From NCBI GenBank assembly GCA_900175165.2, contig FWWN02000662.1, positions 1 through 30,935 on the forward strand: a stretch of DNA of 30,935 nt. The letters run 5' to 3'. The number at the start of each line of letters is the position of its first letter. Position 1 is the first letter of the stretch. This document shows, piece by piece, positions 16,126-30,305 of the stretch. Both the position numbers and the translations under genes were made by a program. The stretch comes from Rhizomucor pusillus (Eukaryota > Mucoromycota > Mucoromycetes > Mucorales > Lichtheimiaceae). Under the pieces are notes generated by a model, which worked only from the letters and a program-made list of their open reading frames with translations, ran no database searches and was not told the origin of the DNA.

Positions 16126-17255
16126 AGATATCAGACAGTTTAAAAAGGGACAAAACAAGAGTTCTGTGAGATTGGACGTATGTATTGTGTTAATATCATC
16201 TTTGCTAGACCATGTTCTACTCTTCTTTTGTAGCTTTACTGCTGTCTCATGGATAAATGATATATGCCTAATTCGATGAGAGGATAAGTGTTAACCCGTT
16301 GATTACTGCATCCAGTGGAGTTACCGGATTGCTATTAGGATCGGGTATCTGTATCTGAGACAGGCTATCGTCTTCATGATTGGATATTGCTCTGTACTAG
16401 TTAGATCTGTCTCGGTTAAAGTGTGTACAGATGGAAGCAACTGCTAATGTTATCATTCTCAGCATGGACAGGTTATCCGTTTTATCGTCTTTGTACACTT
16501 GTAGTTAGTTTATCACATGCACAATGCATATCAAAGAAGATAACTTCAAGAAGATCTGCTTGAAGGGGTTTGGAAACCCCTAGCCAGCATACTGCTTTGA
16601 TCGATCTGTTAACGGTGTTGTTTTTAAGAGCAAATAGTGGTTTTGAAAGCAGACGATGAGTATCGTGAGAGTTGAATGTACCGTTTATTCGGACAAGGCA
16701 GAAAACTTTTACGAACAACTCCCCAATAATAAGTACGCAACAGAGTCTAATAACTGACTGTGGTAAACCACATACATCCGGGTAAGCATTGAACAATAAA
16801 AGGGTTTCAGAAAACACTCCGTGATCCAATAATGGTGGACGGTTGCGTATATCGTCATATCGATGATCTGTAAAGAAAAAAAAGAATGCAACTGGGATAA
16901 AAGTGCATGGCTGACATAACGGTCAAAATGGTAGGCGCAAGCTCTTTGGTCCTAGACCACCTCCCAAAGAATTAGCTCTCATCAGCTGTGTCAAATAGTT
17001 AGTTGAACATACATTTTTCATTCATTCAGAAATGGGTAAATACGCACCATCGAGATAATACAGCATACGGGGAAAACGACAAACTGGCAATGTAATCCAG
17101 TTTAAGCGAAAGAGTTAATACCTAAACGACGTAAAGCACGTTAGTGGCCTAGAGGATGCCTTCTTCGCAGCCAATGTACTAACCAATTTCTGAAAGTGCT
17201 TTCCATATACTGGCTGAATTGCAGTTTCAATCCTAAGACAACGCTGTCAATCAGT
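16126..17255. other. Region without recognisable genes
   Basis: No coding region is seen. It contains one isolated arm of the GGAGGTC hairpin family (16935-16964) and a perfect 8-bp palindrome with a 2-nt loop (about 16564-16581). Possibly decayed transposon DNA following the MULE remnant. Confidence 0.5.
16935..16964 (-). repeat. Solo arm of the GGAGGTC/AAAGAGCTTGCGC hairpin family
   Basis: Thirty nt that match the right arm of the complete hairpin at 22854-22883 with one difference (CCACCTCC for CGACCTCC). No complementary left arm is visible upstream, so this is a truncated or half copy. Confidence 0.8.
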
Positions 17256-21138: not shown

Positions 21139-21249
21139 TTATATGTATTTTTTAGGGTAGGTGTTGCTTATACATTTCGACGAGTTTTCCAGTTCGAATT
21201 TCAAGCTTCTGGCTCAGAAAATAAACAACTCGCTTTCCGATCAAGGAGC

Positions 21250-21320
21250 TCTCGGATAGTATAGTGGTTAGTATCCCCGCCTGTCACGCGGGAGACCCGG
21301 GTTCAATTCCCGGTCCGAGA
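21250..21320 (+). tRNA. tRNA-Asp (GTC), copy 1
   Basis: Complete cloverleaf of 71 nt: acceptor arm TCTCGGA/TCCGAGA, anticodon loop CTGTCAC with anticodon GTC, and T arm with GGTTCAATTCC. No intron. It is identical over its full length to the copy at 30213-30283 on the other strand, although the flanks differ. A T5 terminator follows at 21336-21340. Confidence 0.97.
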
Positions 21321-21335
21321 GGAAACTGCGTACCG

Positions 21336-22423: not shown

Positions 22424-23925
22424 TTGATGGACATGAGGACATGGATGACCTCCAAACCGACTCCAAGACTGATGCGCTGGATAAATGAGGTCGAACTGTA
22501 CGACCCGAAGATTTCACACAAGCCCGGGAAAGAGAACGGTGTCCCCGATACGTTGTCAAGGCAGAAGTACGAGCAAGGCCCTGATCCGGAAGAGAAGTCG
22601 TTAGAAGCCGACTTCCTGGATGCGATCGATCAGCACAAGTTACCCCCGGATCACACCAAGGATTGGCAAAACTACTATGTCAAGCCGCCCGCCGATATGC
22701 CTGACTCGGTCGCCAAGTACTCGGAAGCCCAACGACAACACTTTGTCATTCGCAACGACAGATGTATCGCAAGATCACGTTCAAGAACGACAAGGATTCG
22801 GAGGTCGTTTAGGACCAAAGAGCTTGCGAAGCGGGTCCTATTTACCCAGACAGGCGCAAGCTCTTTGGTCCTAGACGACCTCCTTCCAAGACTTTTGAGG
22901 TCCGTTTCCTGCCTTTCGCCCTTTGTGCCGACAAGATCCTACAGTTCCACGATGGTTTCGGCCATGCAGGAAACCTTACCGTATATGACCTCATGAAGAC
23001 CCGTTACTGGTGGCCGAATATACGCACAGATATCAAGGCCTAGCTGCGATACCGCCCTGCATGCCAGATGAATGGTCCCCGCACAAGTGAGCATAAAGAC
23101 GAGATGCGCCCCTTGAATACCCCTCCTGCCTTTGCTCGCTGGCATCTCGACTTTATCGCCGAACTTCCCAAGTCGGTCCATGGCAACAAGTGGATCCTGG
23201 TTGCGGTAGATTCGATAACAAACTGGCCCATTGCTTGTGCTGTTCCTGTTGCTTCTGGCAAGGCTGTTGCTGACTTTATCTATGAGGAGATCGTCATGCG
23301 TTTTGGCTGTCCCAAGGGAATCCTGACTGATCGTGGTGCGAGGTTCATGAGCAACGTTGTCAAGCTGTATGCCGAGCGTGTCAAGATGAAACACAAGTTG
23401 CCCTCTGCGTTCTACCCAAGGTCCAACGGCATATGTGAACGTTTGAACGGCACTCTGAAGCAAATGTTGCGTAAATACACGAACGGTGCTTTCCACATAT
23501 GGGACGAATACCTGCATACTGCCCTCTTTGCCTGTCGTATTCGTACCCATGCGACCTCTGGTTACAGCCCTTTCAAAATGGTATATAGACAAGACCCAGT
23601 TCTGCCGGGCGACCCCCTAAGCCCGTACATTAGTGACTATCCTCTCAAGGACCCGCGCGTTGATGCAGAACTACAGGCTCAAGAGTTGTAGAAGCTCCAC
23701 CAAGTTCGTGCTGCTGCGACTGCTAGAATGAAGGCCGTCAGTCAGAGAGACAAAGAGAAGTGGGACGCTGCCCTCGACAAGGTGGACTTTGAAGCTGGCT
23801 ACTACGTCAAGCTGTCACATGAAGGACGCTATGGCCTAGAACCGCGCTACCAGGGCCCCTACTTGGTAATTGACAAGAACGCTGACTATGGTACCTACAA
23901 GCCTTGTTCAGGGGCCAACAAGTAG
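22424..23925 (+). pseudogene. Ty3/Gypsy RNase H tail and integrase remnant, hairpin inserted
   Basis: The 3' half of pol. Seen: KPTPRLMRWINEVELYDPKI and HKPGKENGVPDTLSRQ (end of RNase H, 22450-22565); the H2C2 zinc region HDGFGHAGN...MKTRYWWPNI...PACQ (22950-23070), where the first Cys has become Tyr and a TAG interrupts at 23041-23043; the integrase core WHLDFIAELP, LTDRGARF, ICERLNGTLK (23140-23470) with all three DDE acids kept; and a C-terminal GRYGLEPRYQGPYLVID segment. A TAG splits the frame at 23689-23691. A hairpin element (22800-22883) interrupts the linker before the zinc region. The core alone is an open frame of about 200 codons, so decay is recent or uneven. Confidence 0.88.
22800..22883. 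mobile_element. Hairpin element, GGAGGTC family, inserted in the integrase remnant
   Basis: Arms 22800-22828 and 22855-22883 (29 nt) are inverted repeats with one mismatch, around a 26-nt loop. Each arm reads GGAGGTCG(T/C)TAGGACC then AAAGAGCTTGCG, with T or TC at the variable step. It breaks the Gypsy reading frame: the left flank ends GGATTCGGAGGTC and the right flank resumes GAGGTCCGTTTCCTG. GAGGTC thus occurs both in the target and in the arm. Non-coding. Confidence 0.85.
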
Positions 23926-23936
23926 TTCGGGGGGAA
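23926..23936 (+). other. Polypurine tract of the Ty3/Gypsy remnant
   Basis: A GGGGGGAA run lies directly before the TGTCGGGG start of the 3' LTR, just after the integrase stop codon. This is the expected place for plus-strand priming. Confidence 0.75.
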
Positions 23937-24275
23937 TGTCGGGGATCAGAAACCACGAAAACGCTTCAGATCAGTAATCAACCCGGCAAAACCATTACGC
24001 CGAAAACATGTCTGATTGGCTGGCTTGGAGGAACATTCCAGCCTTACCGGGAAGGTCCTCGCTAAGTGAAGCTAGTTCACCAACCTACTTAGAAGATTTC
24101 CATAGACTTGTATACTTCCTGTATCCTCAAGAAGCTTCCTTGTAAATAGATATAAATATACGTCGTTATAAAATTAAAGTCCAATATCGGATTCGCCAGT
24201 AAAGATATTGTAGCCTTTATTGCCGGAATATTGATGCTTCAAGCACGATAAACATCTAGGGACATGCATACGACA
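23937..24275 (+). repeat. 3' LTR of the Ty3/Gypsy remnant (family G)
   Basis: 339 bp from TGTCGGGGATCAG to TACGACA, with TG...CA ends and short inverted termini TGTCG/CGACA, placed right after the polypurine tract. It holds a TATAAATA-like box near 24150. Its first 45 nt match the fragment at 30663-30710. A 4-nt spacer (TTTT) separates it from the next LTR-like repeat. Confidence 0.8.
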
Positions 24276-24279
24276 TTTT

Positions 24280-24632
24280 TGTCGGATTCGTCCTTTCCTA
24301 GATGTCTAGTCCTTCGATATTTCCTCGAACCGGGTTCAATCTAGCAGTTATACAGGGAGAAATCCGAATAAAATAGGCAGAGGATGTTCTCGATTGAAAA
24401 GATTGTTCTTTATTCTATTCAATTGGTTGTATATATACTTTTCTAATGGGATAATCCTGGAAGTAACTAGAATATGCTCAATCTATCTTTACACTTGGAT
24501 ATTCAAGTTTCTTCCCGTATGTTCTCAGAGTTTCTTTGAACTTCCTAATTTTCATTGTTCAACTCCGCAGTCCCGGTTTCCATTTTTGGTCGGCCGGGAT
24601 TTCTGCGCGTGAAGCGCCTATAGCTGGGGACA
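24280..24632 (+). repeat. Solo LTR-like repeat A, upstream of tRNA-Arg
   Basis: A repeat of 342-353 bp starting TGTCGGATTCG and ending near GGGGACA. It aligns end to end, roughly 90% identical by eye, with the copy at 30306-30658 on the other strand. Both have a TATATATA run and no coding capacity. The end of clear homology (24621) is 32 nt, and the CA end (24632) 21 nt, upstream of the tRNA-Arg 5' end. No internal retroelement genes adjoin, so it is probably a solo LTR. No matching target duplication was found. Confidence 0.8.
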
Positions 24633-24653
24633 ATCCAAAGAGACCATAGCAGA

Positions 24654-24726
24654 GGGGCTATGGCCAAATGGATAAGGCGCCTGACTACGAATCAGGAGAT
24701 TCCAGGTTCGACCCCTGGTAGCCTCG
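24654..24726 (+). tRNA. tRNA-Arg (ACG)
   Basis: 73-nt cloverleaf: acceptor GGGGCTA/TAGCCTC with one G-T pair, D arm GCCAAATGGATAAGGC, anticodon arm CCTGA-CTACGAA-TCAGG with anticodon ACG (A34 normally edited to inosine), T arm CCAGGTTCGACCCCTGG, discriminator G. No intron. A T5 terminator is at 24753-24757. Confidence 0.95.
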
Positions 24727-25407
24727 ACTTCCTCAACGGAGGGAATCGTATCTTTTTGTCTTCAAGCTTGTCGTATTGTCGCAGCAAAATCTTTTCTGTG
24801 CGGATTACTAAGCACCGCAGTCGAAGTTATTACGCAATGCTCAACCGCAGTTTATTTTTTTCCTCTCTTCTTATTGAAAAAATGACCACTTGACCTGCCT
24901 TTTTCGGAAGCCCTCTTTATGTAATCCATTTCCCCTTTGAGACGTAAAACGCTAATCTGGCTAGACTCGAGAATGGTTTTTCTCCTTTTATTGGCTCTTT
25001 TTTCCAAAAAATCGCTGTGGAAGCACTTTTTCTGGAGGTTGTAGCGATTTGACGAATGGGAGGAGGGCCGGGTTTTTGAGGGAAAACTGCACTTAATTTA
25101 TACACCTTCCACGTGCCTCGGCTTGAAGACTGTATAACAGGAAATGGGCTACAAAATTAATGTTCGCTTTTGGAGTTGGGCAGACAGAACGGACACCAAT
25201 CCAAGGAACTCGACTTTGAAAACTTTTGGTATTCAGCACCTGTATTCCCACAAAGTCCCTAGCCAGTGTCTTTGTGCGAAGCGCATCGCGACGCCAGGAG
25301 CGCTCCAACATGTTCAGGAGATAAAGAGGTGAGCGCTACTGTTATGAACTTAACCGAAAATTGCGGGCGCATGCGAGCCGCGACGCAGGAGCGCCAACAG
25401 CAAATCA
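24727..25407. other. Non-coding stretch after tRNA-Arg
   Basis: Contains the T5 terminator of the tRNA (24753-24757) and, near its end, a GCGACGCCAGGAGCGCTCC motif (about 25287-25305) that recurs slightly changed at about 25380-25396. Nothing else recognised. Confidence 0.5.
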
Positions 25408-25514
25408 AGAATATACTCCATCGAGCGCCAGTCTGAATAAACCGGAAATTCCACAGCGCCGTGGTTTCAGAAGCGAAGCGGATGCAAAATTGCCGGAGAA
25501 TGGAGGTTTATGAA
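25408..25514 (-). repeat. Dispersed repeat copy 2 (mate at 5088-5194)
   Basis: Inverted relative to copy 1. The same conserved blocks occur in the same order on the minus strand, from TTCATAAACCTCCATT to GGCGCTCG. CG-rich motifs continue on both sides, so the full element may be 150-250 bp. Confidence 0.75.
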
Positions 25515-26070
25515 AGCCAAGGAAGTTTATTCCACAACCTCGGATCAGCACCGGGTTTCCCGCCAAGCGCGCGAGCGTAGCCAGCAAAAAAAGCTTTTTA
25601 TTTAATACAGATAGACCTGAAATCAAAAAATACAGAAAGTCATCTATCGTGTACAGTCTTTTCCGTGATTACGGGCTATTAAGTTGTGTCGAATTCTGGA
25701 TACTACGACATACCGCTATTTCTTTCAGCGTTTCGAGCCGACAGACAAAAATAATAATGTCGTGCACGGACTCCAGCAATTTCCTTCTTGGTCCCTTCCC
25801 TTTTCATCCATATCTCTATTGCATAATCGCAATTAAAACGTTTTATTCTTGTAGCTATTCCTTTATTACTTTCAGATGCTTCCAGTAATTTCTACAGTCC
25901 ATCGGACTACAACATGAGCCTGTAGTTCTCCCACCTGTCGTGTCCAGGTGTAACGACCACCTATTTAATACGATGTCTGCTAAATGACAGTATAACCATC
26001 TTCAAACTTCATCACAAAAAATATAATGGAGAGTGGCGTAGATGTCTGTCTTCTTTGTCTTTATTCTCAG
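25515..26070. other. Non-coding stretch between the dispersed repeat and the long hairpin
   Basis: No gene or element can be supported. The last 150 nt may include the downstream part of the interrupted ISXO2-like gene, but similarity is too weak to claim. Confidence 0.4.
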
Positions 26071-26328
26071 GAGGTCATCTAGAACCACAGGTATGATGTT
26101 CCTCCTGTTCAAGTCCCCGCTCCGCGAGGCTACCCGGGTTTTCGAGAATATGCGATGGTCGCTCGACTGATCTTAATACAGTAATTTTCTGCCATGCAGA
26201 AAGATTCAGAAAACTTTATATGTGTCCGAACTTCAAGCGACCACCGCATATTCTCGAAAACCCGGGTAGCCTCGCGGAGCGGGGACTTGAACGGGAGGAA
26301 CATCATACCTGTGGTTCTAGATGACCTC
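26071..26328. mobile_element. Long-arm hairpin element (93-bp arms), GGAGGTC-type ends
   Basis: Inverted repeats 26071-26163 and 26236-26328 (93 nt, two mismatches) flank a 72-nt loop. The ends read GAGGTCATCTAG, as in the shorter hairpins, but the arm interior is unrelated to AAAGAGCTTGCGC. No coding capacity. It begins directly where the ISXO2-like transposase remnant loses similarity, so it probably inserted into that gene or broke it. Confidence 0.88.
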
Positions 26329-26329
26329 T

Positions 26330-27056
26330 TATCAGTGTGTACATTTGTAAAGGGTCTTAAAAATTTCTTTTACGATTTACAGTTTGATGCTTATAGGCTA
26401 TATTTTTAAATTAGTATACCCTTTCCAGGAATTAGTGTAAATTGTAGTTCCTCTTTTAACATACATTTTTATAATTTCATCTGTATTTTTTATATTTCTT
26501 TCTTCGATAGGAGGTAAAAACAGCTTTTAATTTATAGCTATAGTTTTGTTTTTCAATATACTTCTTTCTATCCCACCAATAACCCATGCACCTTCCACTT
26601 TTTGACCTCTGTTATATTTTCTTTTTCCAATTTTACTCTCATCTAATTCGACGATTTTATTACGACCTCCAATTTCTCTATCTCTGCTAAAATACTGTTT
26701 TTCACTTAAGTACTTTCTAAATATTTTGTTATATGATGACACTGTATTTTTATCAATACTTAAGCTAGCAGCTATAAACGAGGATGGAGCTTTCCCCAAA
26801 AATAAATATAAAGTATGTAATTGTATATTTATAGTAAACGCAACCTACTAAAGATTGTACCATTAAAAGGGGAAATGGCTTTTCTACACTTATATTTACA
26901 TACATATAATTTTTTATTTAAATTTAGGACGGTTTCTTTACCACACTTTATGCATTTCTCATACTTATTTATGTAGCTATTTTCAATTAAATATATAAGT
27001 GCATCGATCTCATTATCAAAAATTTTCTTTAATATTTCATAAGGTTCTATGAGCAT
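26330..27056 (-). pseudogene. ISXO2/Merlin-like (IS1595-type) transposase, decayed
   Basis: Read on minus from 27056. An N-terminal zinc ribbon CIKCGKETVLNLNKKLYVC...CRKAISPFNGTIF is followed, after one frameshift near 26830, by a helical segment and the catalytic start IVELDESKIGKRKYNRGQKV, EGAWVIGGIER, which is diagnostic of the ISXO2-like DDE family. A TAA stops the frame at 26529-26527. Beyond it the sequence reads YVKRGTTIYTNSWKGY, where the second catalytic Asp (normally TD.WKGY) is Asn, then a TVNxKRNF-like stretch with another stop. Similarity ends at the hairpin (26328). The region is much richer in A/T than its surroundings. Related elements are known in microsporidia and other fungi. 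Confidence 0.83.
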
Positions 27057-27232
27057 ATTTAATCATACTTTTATTTTATACGTGAAGTTCAATTTTTTTT
27101 CTTAAAATCTAAAATTTAAGGTTTCTGAGTTCAAATTCGACCTGAGACCTTTATTCGTAAAGATCCCATAATTCTTTGCTTGTTATTCCATTAAAAGCAC
27201 CTACCTAAAGTCTCACAGTATCTTACTGTTCC
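27057..27232. other. AT-rich flank of the ISXO2-like remnant
   Basis: Continues the AT-rich composition to about 27120. May hold the element's terminal repeat, but no pair was identified. Confidence 0.4.
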
Positions 27233-27934
27233 CATTTCTTGCCAAACACTTCACTTGGCTTGCTTGCGGATCCTTGGTGATAGGGCTCGGACTCGGGATG
27301 GGACAGTTGGGACCTCCCATTGGGACTTGCGACGAACAGTGTCCCAGCGTCCCAGGAGTCCTAAGAGTCCCAAGTGCCCTAACGTCTGAAATTTCTCGCT
27401 CCGATGAATTTTTCACGGCGAGCTGCATGCGGCCTATGTCAGAAGCCCAGTGACCTAGACGAGGAACGAAGACGTAAGTCAATGTATCTTAGCTTAAGCG
27501 TCCCAAACCGTCCCAGTGTGACAGCTCAGATGTCCCATTGGGACGTGGGACGGGGTCGTGTCCCATCCCATCCCATTCCATCCCAGTCCGAGCCCTACTT
27601 TGGTGATGCTGGCCCAGCCATTTGCAAAGACGCAGCTGCTTACATTCTTCTGTCTCTTGGGCTTCATGGAAACAGGTTGCTCCTCTTGGAGATTTTCGGT
27701 TTCAGTAGCACTTTGGTCATACATCGAGACGTCCGAGCCGACACGAGTAAATATTGGAATCGATACGATACTTTGGGAATCAGTTTCATATCCCTACACG
27801 CAAGAGGTTTTATTAGATCAGGTTCGGCTGGTAGATTATGTGCTATTTCCACTTACACTTTGAGTGGATTCATAATCTTCGAGATCTGCACGGCGCTTCT
27901 GGGCAGCTTTGGAAGGTTCAGGCAAGTAAGACAT
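27233..27934 (-). pseudogene. N-terminal fragment of an unknown gene, interrupted by a MITE
   Basis: Family not recognised. Exons on minus: 27934-27857 (starts MSYLPEPSKAAQKRRADLED, 26 codons), 27793-27644 (50 codons, ends MKPKRQKN), then an exon starting 27608 that is cut by the MITE at 27597-27281. It resumes at 27280 in a frame reading GSASKPSEVFGKKWEQ before a TAA at 27235-27233. All borders are GT-AG and phases agree once the MITE and one copy of the 8-bp duplication are ignored. A GTAAGA at 27237-27232 could be another donor, so the original gene may have been longer and its remainder replaced by the AT-rich element. Composition is acidic and Ser/Gln-rich, with a basic end. Confidence 0.5.
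27281..27597. mobile_element. hAT-like MITE with target-site duplication
   Basis: 317 bp bounded by inverted repeats TAGGGCTCGGACTCGGGAT (27281-27299) and its near complement ending AGTCCGAGCCCTA (27585-27597). The interior is full of short GTCCCA/TGGGAC motifs in both orientations, as expected for subterminal transposase-binding repeats. CTTGGTGA (27273-27280) precedes it and CTTTGGTGA (27598-27606) follows it. This is an 8-bp duplication with one extra T, the length produced by hAT transposases. It lies inside an exon of the flanking gene fragment. Confidence 0.8.
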
Positions 27935-28614
27935 GGTTGATAGAATAGTGATCAGGAGGAAGATATGGAATCGAGCGAATTGAATGAAGTCGGTCGTCTT
28001 GAATGGAGATGGTGGTTCTTGTATTTTTCTCGCTATACTGCAGATGATGGTACGGTTTGTCATCACGTCATACAGCTGTGGATAAATGCTGTGCAAAATA
28101 CTATGAGTTATGCCGTGCGTAGGAATGATGAATATATGCTGAACATATGTGAGGGAGTAATACGACGGGATGCGCAGCTCCTGCTGAGGACAGCTACGTA
28201 GTGACTCCACTTTTTTCTTTTCCTTCGCAAATTCGAAAAGACTTCACACCCAATGTAGTGAATGAAACAGCAGGAACTTGGCAAAGATGCCTTGGAAGGT
28301 CTTCAAATGTAAGTTGCGAGACATCACTATGTGTATTGTAACTTTTAAATCTAAATTGCTGCTTTCTGATTTGTAGATCTGTAGCTATTGCAAAGCAAAT
28401 AAACCTAACCGACGCGTACTTGTCAACAATCTGTTTCCATCGCGTCTTTGCAGCGAGCATCCGCAGATTGATACAACAGCCAAGGTTGACGCAAACGCAA
28501 ACTACGGGTTGACTCTACTATACAGTTGTCGACTGTTTTATGCAACTTTTCTCTTTCCTCATCGACGAAGCCGTTGTTACCATCAGCTGTCGCGTCACAT
28601 TGCATGGGAGGTCT
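27935..28614. other. Stretch without recognisable genes
   Basis: Probably holds the promoter of the minus-strand gene fragment starting at 27934. Minus-strand open frames at 28194-28460 and 28423-28605 show no family features and are not called. Confidence 0.4.
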
Positions 28615-28712
28615 CTAGGATTAAAGAGCTTGCGCTTGTTTGGGTCAAAGGAACCGCTTCCCAAGCTACGCGGGTCTTTTGACCCAAACAAGCGCAAGCT
28701 CTTTAATCCTAG
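28615..28712. mobile_element. Hairpin element, AAAGAGCTTGCGC family, flanked by direct GGAGGTC
   Basis: Arms 28615-28652 and 28675-28712 (38 nt, one mismatch) start CTAGGATTAAAGAGC and continue TTGCGCTTGTTTGGGTCAAA, around a 22-nt loop. Unlike the other copies, the terminal GGAGGTC is a direct repeat here: left at 28607-28613, right at 28712-28718. It therefore looks like a target-site duplication. Confidence 0.88.
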
Positions 28713-29704
28713 GAGGTCATCCAAGCACACTATGATCTAGGGCGCCCTGCTATCGGCTGGATGTCTCTATGCCTTTCCAACTTCTACGTGGATATCCATG
28801 CCTTGGATGTCGAAAAAATCCCGAGACGTCTCCCCCCCCCCAGTAGAACATCAGGAAAGATTCCTCCCGACGCCACGCCTCCTAAACGTCATCCAATGGA
28901 TTATAGACCAAACTCGTTTTAAAGGTTGGCCGTTGATCCGGTGAGGAAGTCATAGATGGACCATCCACGGACGAATCCTTGGATATGGACGACCTCCCTA
29001 GGCTACCTCCATGCATTTTCCCATCGTTCTAAAGTTATTCGGGCTGCTTACGATGACAGTCGTTGGTTGATGGAGTGCATTTGCAGTTATGAGGCACGTG
29101 TCGATTTACTTTTGCAAGTGCTTACAACCAGCAATTTCTGGGAACCATCATAACATGCAGAGAAAGATCAAAGTTGCAATACAATGAGCTCGTTGATTGT
29201 TTCATACTAGCGATTGAACTGGTGATGACTGAATGCGAAGGGCTATGGACATTGATAGTGCAGAATGATGCAAACAGGATATGGAAACCATGTGCTGTGC
29301 TATTTTATAGTATACATTCGACGTAGATATGAGCAAGGCAATGAAGTTACAAATTACGTTCCATTTCCTAAAACATTCTTCAAGAAGGTTCAAAACGTTT
29401 GTTGAAGACATGGCGAAATAAGCGAAATAAGGAAATCATAACATGAACTGCATAAACCCATATACTGCTCAATATGTCTAAATAACTTGGACCTCATAAA
29501 ACAGACTGCTTTCCTATAGCGGCATTCGCGATTATGACAGATTCAAGGATCTTCAACCCTTTTGCAATCACAATTGCGCGAATGAAAACGAACAAATGGA
29601 ATGAATGGACCTCCGCCTTTATTCGTTCGTTTTCGCTCGAGCGGAATTACACGAACGAAGACAAACGAAAAACAGTTAATCGAATAAAGTGCCGACCTCT
29701 ATTT
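28713..29704. other. Stretch without recognisable genes; poly-C run and a short inverted repeat
   Basis: Contains a run of ten C (about 28832-28841) and an inverted repeat built on GAAAACGAAC/GTTCGTTTTC (about 29579-29597 and 29621-29639). The segment ending GGATATGGACGACCTCC (near 28998) resembles the stretch before 22450 in the Gypsy remnant and may be gag-derived, but this is weak. Confidence 0.4.
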
Positions 29705-29761
29705 GGAGGCCATCCAGAATTAAAGAGCTTGCGCCTATTCCTTTAATTCTGGATTGCCTCC
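29705..29761. mobile_element. Short hairpin element, GGAGGTC / AAAGAGCTTGCGC family
   Basis: Arms 29705-29725 and 29741-29761 (21 nt, one mismatch) read GGAGGC.ATCCAGAATTAAAG. The AAAGAGCTTGCGC core is present on the left side only, so the right arm has lost its inner part. This is the shortest copy in the window (57 bp). Confidence 0.8.
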
Positions 29762-29800
29762 TTTACCAATAGTATCAATTGTATTTTAGCACTTGCAAAA

Positions 29801-30208: not shown

Positions 30209-30212
30209 TGAC

Positions 30213-30283
30213 TCTCGGACCGGGAATTGAACCCGGGTCTCCCGCGTGACAGGCGGGGATACTAACCACTATACTATCCGAGA
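30213..30283 (-). tRNA. tRNA-Asp (GTC), copy 2
   Basis: 71 nt, identical to copy 1 at 21250-21320. Flanks differ, so the copies arose by an old or gene-sized duplication, or identity is kept by selection. LTR sequence lies on both sides: family D 10 nt beyond its 3' end and repeat B 22 nt before its 5' end. Confidence 0.97.
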
Positions 30284-30305
30284 ATTGCTTGCTTCGCCTT
30301 AGGGC

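Follow-up and report, generated by a model that had tools for sequence, protein, structure and literature searches.

The question raised by contig FWWN02000662.1 of Rhizomucor pusillus (assembly GCA_900175165.2), the 30,935 bp of which are together referred to here as the window, is what moves the small inverted-repeat hairpins with GGAGGTC ends that it contains. A first-pass annotation, made from the letters alone, described these hairpins and proposed looking for an autonomous element with the same ends. A candidate for this element, here called X, is present in the genome and encodes a PF13359 (DDE_Tnp_4) transposase, and its anatomy supplies a candidate mobiliser of the hairpins. The hairpins of the window are real, occur genome-wide, and are mobile, beyond what would be expected by chance. 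They are very probably the terminal palindromes of a two-gene family of DNA transposons of the PHIS kind, together with free copies of those termini that resemble miniature inverted-repeat transposable elements (MITEs).

The genome sequence holding the window (as contig C211) comprises 24.45 Mb in 353 contigs. The 13-base core AAAGAGCTTGCGC matches 30 times, versus once for the reversed pattern used as a control, and the end motif GGAGGYCNTCYAGRAYY matches 85 times, versus 2 for its control; the genome-wide search that had been proposed therefore recovers a repeat family with GGAGGTC ends. Around the motif matches 48 contiguous segments (186,946 bases) were fetched, within which 55 candidate hairpins were paired by script and 53 were kept. 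The two pairs dropped were mis-pairings, while those in C42 and C238, which have three-mismatch ends and look broken, were retained. The resulting catalogue is a sample of the regions near motif matches, and leaves out C329:16834, C329:24471-24730, and the left part of C321:8849.

Three hairpin families with related ends are recognisable: a core family (57 to 245 bp, with AAAGAGCTTGCGC), a family of 258-264 bp (with GGAGGTCATCTAGAACCACA), and a family of 282-286 bp with two end types. Shortened copies are seen in every family, such that hairpin lengths range from 45 to 286 bp. In three 84-bp copies from two subfamilies the internal junction is identical and lies at a GCAAGCT repeat, as read by eye, which is compatible with slippage in the palindrome. 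Like MITEs, the hairpins are short, have terminal inverted repeats, are dispersed in many copies, and encode no transposase. The first-pass annotation was right both in holding that the hairpin itself has no transposase-like coding sequence and in placing hairpins often inside other transposons, as in a gypsy-like region and in the case of a 286-bp element within another hairpin.

Identical 3-mers flank 22 of the 53 hairpins, exactly at GGAGG/CCTCC, and in none of the 53 does the identity extend to 4 bp. In 2000 shuffles of the flanks the mean was 2.9 and the maximum 9 of 53. Not counted in the 22 is an ATG duplication around the window element at 28607-29010, an interrupted hairpin missed by the pairing script. 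The target-site duplication is of fixed length, as in MITEs, at 3 bp, and 7 of the 10 hairpins under 90 bp have one of their own. Insertion without duplication, which a few loci had suggested, is rejected. Merlin/ISXO2 elements generate duplications of 8-9 bp, and an origin of the hairpins from such elements is ruled out because the duplication here is 3 bp.

There are at least seven matches to PF13359 in the genome, five of them above the cut-off, and all seven are on contigs that bear hairpins. The stretch separating a 260-bp hairpin from the transposase, used as a query (X1), has 22 matches in the genome. Ten of these, one being the query itself in its own position, reach query base 1, and each lies base to base against a 260-type hairpin (C79, C22, three in C154, C129, C307, C15, C183, and C46). 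Two of the junctions in C154 use one hairpin, and the third ends at the contig edge after 73 bases. The outer flanks of these X1-terminal hairpins differ among the copies. A second query, X2, from C41, has 15 matches, four of which (own place included) reach base 1 or 2; all four have a GGAGGTC end within a base, and three have a complete hairpin, one of these (C129) being of mixed type. That every X1 copy with its first base abuts a hairpin, and that X2 behaves alike, indicates that the hairpins serve as end modules of X and also exist independently as MITEs, the ends of which are likewise common to a longer transposase-bearing element.

Among the 53 hairpins, on our own reading, 13 are at an X terminus and 6 more are at an internal point of X; 34 have no X contact. 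The first-pass annotation had named as fatal to its proposal the possibility that the hairpin is only part of a longer element; this is so for a part of the family, the 13 and 6 hairpins at or touching X. Contact with X, its transposase, or its second gene at a distance of up to 150 bp on one or both sides, as found by blastn and tblastn, is seen for 16 of the 31 hairpins without a duplication and for 3 of the 22 with one (Fisher p 0.008), one of the latter 3 having been taken from the X1 search rather than from the contact scan. More contacts among hairpins without duplications would be expected if the hairpins are a mixture of termini of a longer element and freely inserted copies.

The X transposase matches PF13359 with an E value of 3e-10 in C79, and two of the three copies scanned, both others than this, have a C-terminal chromodomain (PF00385). 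Residues D180, D256, and E309 are invariant in the 12 transposases aligned of 120 listed, and on the basis of the alignment are assigned here as the putative DDE triad. The transposase has 238 relatives, and among the 120 listed the best is 99% identical over 95%, from R. pusillus. A second open reading frame (ORF), ORF2, follows on the same strand, which is the two-ORF layout of most PHIS groups. The R. pusillus gene model P0002 joins PF13359 and ORF2, and in two cases a transposase match and an ORF2 match come from contigs of equal size (P0022/P0006, 3363; P0100/P0013, 3296), which suggests linkage of the two genes. The ORF2 copy in C46 has 560 open codons (560 aa), and the 30 ORF2 matches in the genome are in pieces, many with stops. 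In C129, 13470-17504 (4,035 bp) reads hairpin, transposase, ORF2 (with stops), inverted X end, and hairpin, and is bordered by CTA on either outer side. The sequence itself shows ends common to X and the hairpins, 3-bp duplications, hairpins placed exactly at the X termini, and a transposase and ORF2 lying between these.

Bases 1-167 of the X1 query match again on the opposite strand after ORF2 in C46, C129, C154, C15, and C307, which gives X1 subterminal inverted repeats besides the hairpins. At C154:7476-7735 and locus L098 (C154:3500-3940), two X1 elements of different subfamily lie head to head on one terminal hairpin. On the other side of this pair, two ORF2 3' ends join in a palindromic junction without a hairpin.

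Since the end of X is a whole hairpin, the presumed recognition end GGAGGTCnTCYAG lies on both its outer and inner edges, and the DDE transposase could therefore cut either round X or round one terminal hairpin alone. The excised X or lone hairpin would be inserted with a 3-bp duplication, the X transposase being what moves the hairpins. X would then be a transposon with ends that are themselves mobile palindromes, where one transposase could move the whole element or a single end. Recombination among hairpins may produce arms of chimeric origin, the loss of duplications, and X bodies that stop at the hairpin edge, and the arms may be repeatedly re-copied from one another through hairpin-templated synthesis or gene conversion.

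The arms themselves point to such events. Between the arms of the 26 full-length hairpins of the 260 family, identity is 0.957 within a copy versus 0.872 between copies, and private variants, each confined to a single copy, occur in both arms in 29 cases and in one arm only in 34. Under independent mutation almost no private variants would be expected in both arms, by our own estimate, and private mutations common to both arms of a copy suggest that the palindromes have been re-copied. In the core family (9 hairpins) identity is 0.966 within and 0.836 between copies. Four hairpins of the 260 family have arms that are 0.82-0.88 identical within the copy, versus 0.947-0.979 to another copy; as these arms resemble another copy far more than they resemble one another, the four appear to be chimeras. 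Hairpins are also found exactly where X bodies are cut off, at X1 base 212 in C129, X2 base 245 in C262, and X1 base 1075 in C307, with further cases inside ORF2 in C22 and inside the transposase in C118. Recombination between hairpins explains the cut-off X bodies and needs no new machinery, while repeated hairpin-primed copying would be a bolder, alternative account of both the arms and the cut-offs.

Several observations weigh against the hairpins being X termini that are moved and re-copied in this way. There is no exact duplication at 31 of the 53 hairpins; about half of these touch X, and the remainder require that recombination or decay be assumed. Two of the 22 duplications (C79:24256 and C129:17245) are at X1 termini, where one flank is X itself, and may be coincidence. 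C129 is the sole X copy with both X termini for which both outer flanks were read, and a 3-bp match can arise by chance; in C22, where a second hairpin caps a truncated X body, the outer flanks differ. An empty site for the window insertion at 22800 was sought, and the flanking region has no second copy, only hairpins being matched. The duplicated sites include 0 TWA, 4 ANT, and 0 CWG of 22, and so do not fit those published for the PHIS groups. A hairpin's own partner arm is the best match in 17 of the 26 copies of the 260 family, strictly so in 13. In the core family 1 private variant is in both arms versus 6 in one, so that the evidence from private variants comes from the 260 family.

Free hairpins could instead be remnants left after the two terminal hairpins of an X recombine and its body is deleted, in the manner of solo long terminal repeats (LTRs). 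The palindromes do make the ends of X direct as well as inverted repeats, exact duplications would be accounted for equally, and hairpins with chimeric arms exist, such as that in C299, which has a TTT duplication, arms 0.82 alike, and one arm 0.979 identical to another copy. That short hairpins bear their own duplications, at the frequency given above for those under 90 bp, and that hairpins without X contact exceed the X copies seen, weigh against this origin, which is less likely but still has an appreciable probability. It would be considerably less probable that these are ordinary MITEs that inserted beside X by preference, X itself ending without hairpins. Hairpins do enter other elements, as in the gypsy-like region and the window hairpin containing the 286-bp element, and TAG/TAG or CTA/CTA surrounds the terminal hairpin at two X1 termini (C79 and C129). 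Preference would not readily place a hairpin at the identical base in 10 of 10 X1 matches, the lowest of them at 72% identity, and the 3-bp flanks are unmatched round six other X1-terminal hairpins (C22, C154, C15, C183, C307, and C46). Functional RNA genes or sources of small RNA under selection might also give a very stable fold, with co-changing arms that resemble compensatory change. The hairpins are however insertions flanked by duplications, into a retroelement-like region and into one another, and vary in length over the whole range of the catalogue, making such a function highly improbable as their explanation.

The favoured explanation, of hairpins as the termini of X, has parallels in known systems. 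FB and Galileo are foldback elements of other superfamilies, and Tm1 is by its title Mutator/Foldback. X shares with these the long ends capable of folding back and the presence of foldback derivatives, but is unlike them in having a PF13359 transposase and a 3-bp duplication. PHIS transposons (PIF/Harbinger, ISL2EU, Spy, Pangu, and Nuwa) mostly have two ORFs and a DDE transposase, with 3-bp duplications in several groups (PMC4482050). X is like them in its DDE_Tnp_4 domain, two ORFs, length of about 4 kb, 3-bp duplication, and GG ends. It differs in that its termini are whole palindromes of 118-260 bp, its transposase has a chromodomain, its duplications are mostly A/T and outside the published sites, and its ORF2 has no Myb/SANT or YqaJ match.

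PIF/Harbinger proper has a TWA duplication (PMC4482050), seen in 0 of the 22 cases here. Its Myb/SANT-type ORF2 is not seen in X, and neither are the AT dinucleotide duplication, that of X being 3 bp, and the YqaJ exonuclease ORF2 of the ISL2EU group. Pangu (Harbinger2) is like X in occurring in fungi, in having ends that start with GG and a duplication of 3 bp, and in the size of its autonomous candidates, and its ORF2 is likewise reported to lack a known motif; it is unlike X in its ANT duplication (4 of 22 X hairpins) and its terminal inverted repeats of 11-40 bp (PMC4482050). X can therefore be called PHIS-like, but it does not match any of the groups with which it was compared. A published report describes fungal relatives of PHIS elements that carry unusual cargo; its main text uses neither the word 'chromodomain' nor 'hairpin' (PMC12730594). 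No description of this element was found among the titles and abstract openings that an open-access library yielded on Harbinger, on Rep_trans with transposons, and on palindromic MITEs.

The second gene of X might be a DNA-nicking replication protein similar to the Rep_trans enzymes, although this reading, which leans on a structural model, is tentative and falls somewhat short of an even chance. ORF2 has 20 relatives, the named species being Rhizomucor pusillus, Apophysomyces, and Actinomortierella, and its alignment (A2) contains the query and 15 of the 20, with P0002, P0003, P0017, P0019, and P0020 excluded. Rep_trans and TATA-binding protein structures are near the top of the ranking for the ORF2 model, tied with other folds, and because of these ties the fold alone proves nothing. 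Solved Rep_trans members (PF02486; RepDE and RepSTK1) are among the best structural matches, and the active-site D, D, E, Y, K, E/Q, and R (PMC4797284) have putative counterparts in ORF2, in the same order and on the same kind of strand or helix. These are D55, D171, and E278 as candidate metal ligands, Y231 and K233 as candidate catalytic Tyr and Lys, and Q236 and R276; they are equated with the Rep_trans residues by motif order and secondary structure, not by residue-level superposition.

The rest of the published Rep_trans set is not matched in ORF2, which has D169 for R140, that is D and not R before DxxxD, S/T/A for A144, and K229 for R189, and in which T-x-Y-x-G (T176, Y178, and G180 of Rep_trans) is not recognised. 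No tyrosine motif could be located in P0015 or P0016, the search for the RxE motif also failed in P0016, and the fused model P0003 has G at the position of E278. ORF2 is also unlike Rep_trans in its eukaryotic host, its place behind a DDE transposase, and the lack of a significant profile match. The PF02486 profile does not match the ORF2 proteins or anything in the genome search, and hhalign of ORF2 against 24 inoviral Rep_trans proteins (of 120 listed) gives a probability of 0.3%, the best local stretch being the RxE strand; the control, ORF2 against the transposase, is negative too. A Pfam scan of ORF2 gave no match above the cut-off, and the 16 ORF2 proteins, searched against Pfam with E values up to 10, had no match to Myb/SANT, YqaJ, or PF02486, though HMMER filters may hide a divergent domain. 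NCBIfam gave nothing below 0.1 for ORF2, and a PDB profile search gave no match.

With the whole ORF2 model, Foldseek returned four PDB chains with E values of 0.001 or less (TrwK/VirB4 type and HMG-CoA reductase; TM scores of 0.14 or less) and three viral matches (TM scores of 0.18 or less), all taken as noise. One of the 16 ORF2 proteins (P0010, E 1.6e-6) matches phrog_702, 'replication protein', the content of which could not be checked; on the genome this profile matched nowhere, which is evidence neither way. Against the ORF2 alignment, 63 stretches of viral contigs fit a pattern and none was confirmed, no phage was found with P0010, and no plasmid was found with the X transposase.

It is doubtful, but would be of consequence, that X is a hybrid replicator in which a Rep_trans-like nickase, ORF2, acts on the terminal hairpins of a PHIS-type DDE transposon. 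ORF2 would nick the extruded terminal palindrome, and hairpin-primed synthesis would copy one arm from the other, which could lead to private mutations in both arms, to complete hairpins capping X bodies truncated at the hairpin edge, and to two divergent X elements sharing one hairpin, as in C154. Were ORF2 such an enzyme, X would pair a plasmid-type nickase with a DDE transposase in a eukaryotic host, which would be a new combination. Cut-and-paste would be linked to hairpin-primed replication in one element, the concerted evolution of the palindrome arms would have a mechanism, and one of the additional PHIS ORFs would gain a function. To our knowledge no Rep_trans-like enzyme was known earlier in a eukaryotic element, and none was found in open-access literature searches on Rep_trans and transposons. 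Known Rep_trans enzymes act at a hairpin (PMC4797284) and appear to be restricted to bacteria, with one archaeal relative reported (PMC13107129), and the functions of additional PHIS ORFs are called unknown (PMC4482050).

Within the window itself, the four hairpins and the single arm of the first-pass annotation are all present, although the limits 28615-28712 given for one are wrong, this element being 28607-29010. The single arm of a core-family hairpin, at 16935-16965, carries GGAGGTGGTCTAGGACCAAAGAGCTTGCGC on the minus strand, and its partner arm was not found; the hairpin features that follow are given no strand. The 84 bp core-family hairpin at 22800-22883 is in a Ty3/gypsy-like region, with an integrase domain (PF00665) downstream and a TTC duplication at 22797-22799 and 22884-22886. 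The 260 bp hairpin at 26070-26329 belongs to the X1-terminal family, with arms of 96 nt that are 97% complementary and flanks of TCA and TAT showing no duplication; it folds at -207.9 kcal/mol, with a z-score of -28.

A core-family hairpin occupies 28607-28711 with its left arm, its loop, and the greater part of its right arm, and its displaced right end, CTAGGCTACCTCC, is at 28998-29010, directly followed by the second copy of the outer ATG duplication (28604-28606 and 29011-29013). A 286-bp element with related GGAGGTC/GACCTCC ends is nested between them at 28712-28997, with a CTA duplication at 28709-28711 and 28998-29000. Since this insertion splits the hairpin, the right-hand GGAGGTC that had been assigned to the hairpin marks where the inserted element begins. 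The last hairpin, at 29705-29761, is an internally shortened, 57 bp member of the core family, with a TTT duplication at 29702-29704 and 29762-29764. AAAGAGCTTGCGC is found exactly at 16935, 22854, 28623, 28692, and 29722, and is therefore at four of the five loci, as had been noted, with the 26070 hairpin lacking it as a member of the second family. Arms differ at 1 to 3 positions, where one or two had been given, and loops are 12 to 66 nt rather than 15-72 nt.

At 26330-27062 on the minus strand of the window, and at L074:1539-2021, also minus, there are broken AT-rich ORFs that by eye resemble a transposase of the ISXO2/Merlin type; two pieces of these were scanned against Pfam at 0.001, with no match. 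A possible foldback is present at 27281-27597, where the 16-nt inverted repeat TAGGGCTCGGACTCGG encloses many GTCCCA/TGGGAC words. The window has tRNA genes for Asp (21249-21322), Arg (24654-24726), and Asp (30210-30284). The second and third of these adjoin LTR-like stretches that by eye are mutually similar and oppositely oriented, a pattern suggestive of tRNA genes being targeted by a Ty3-type element.

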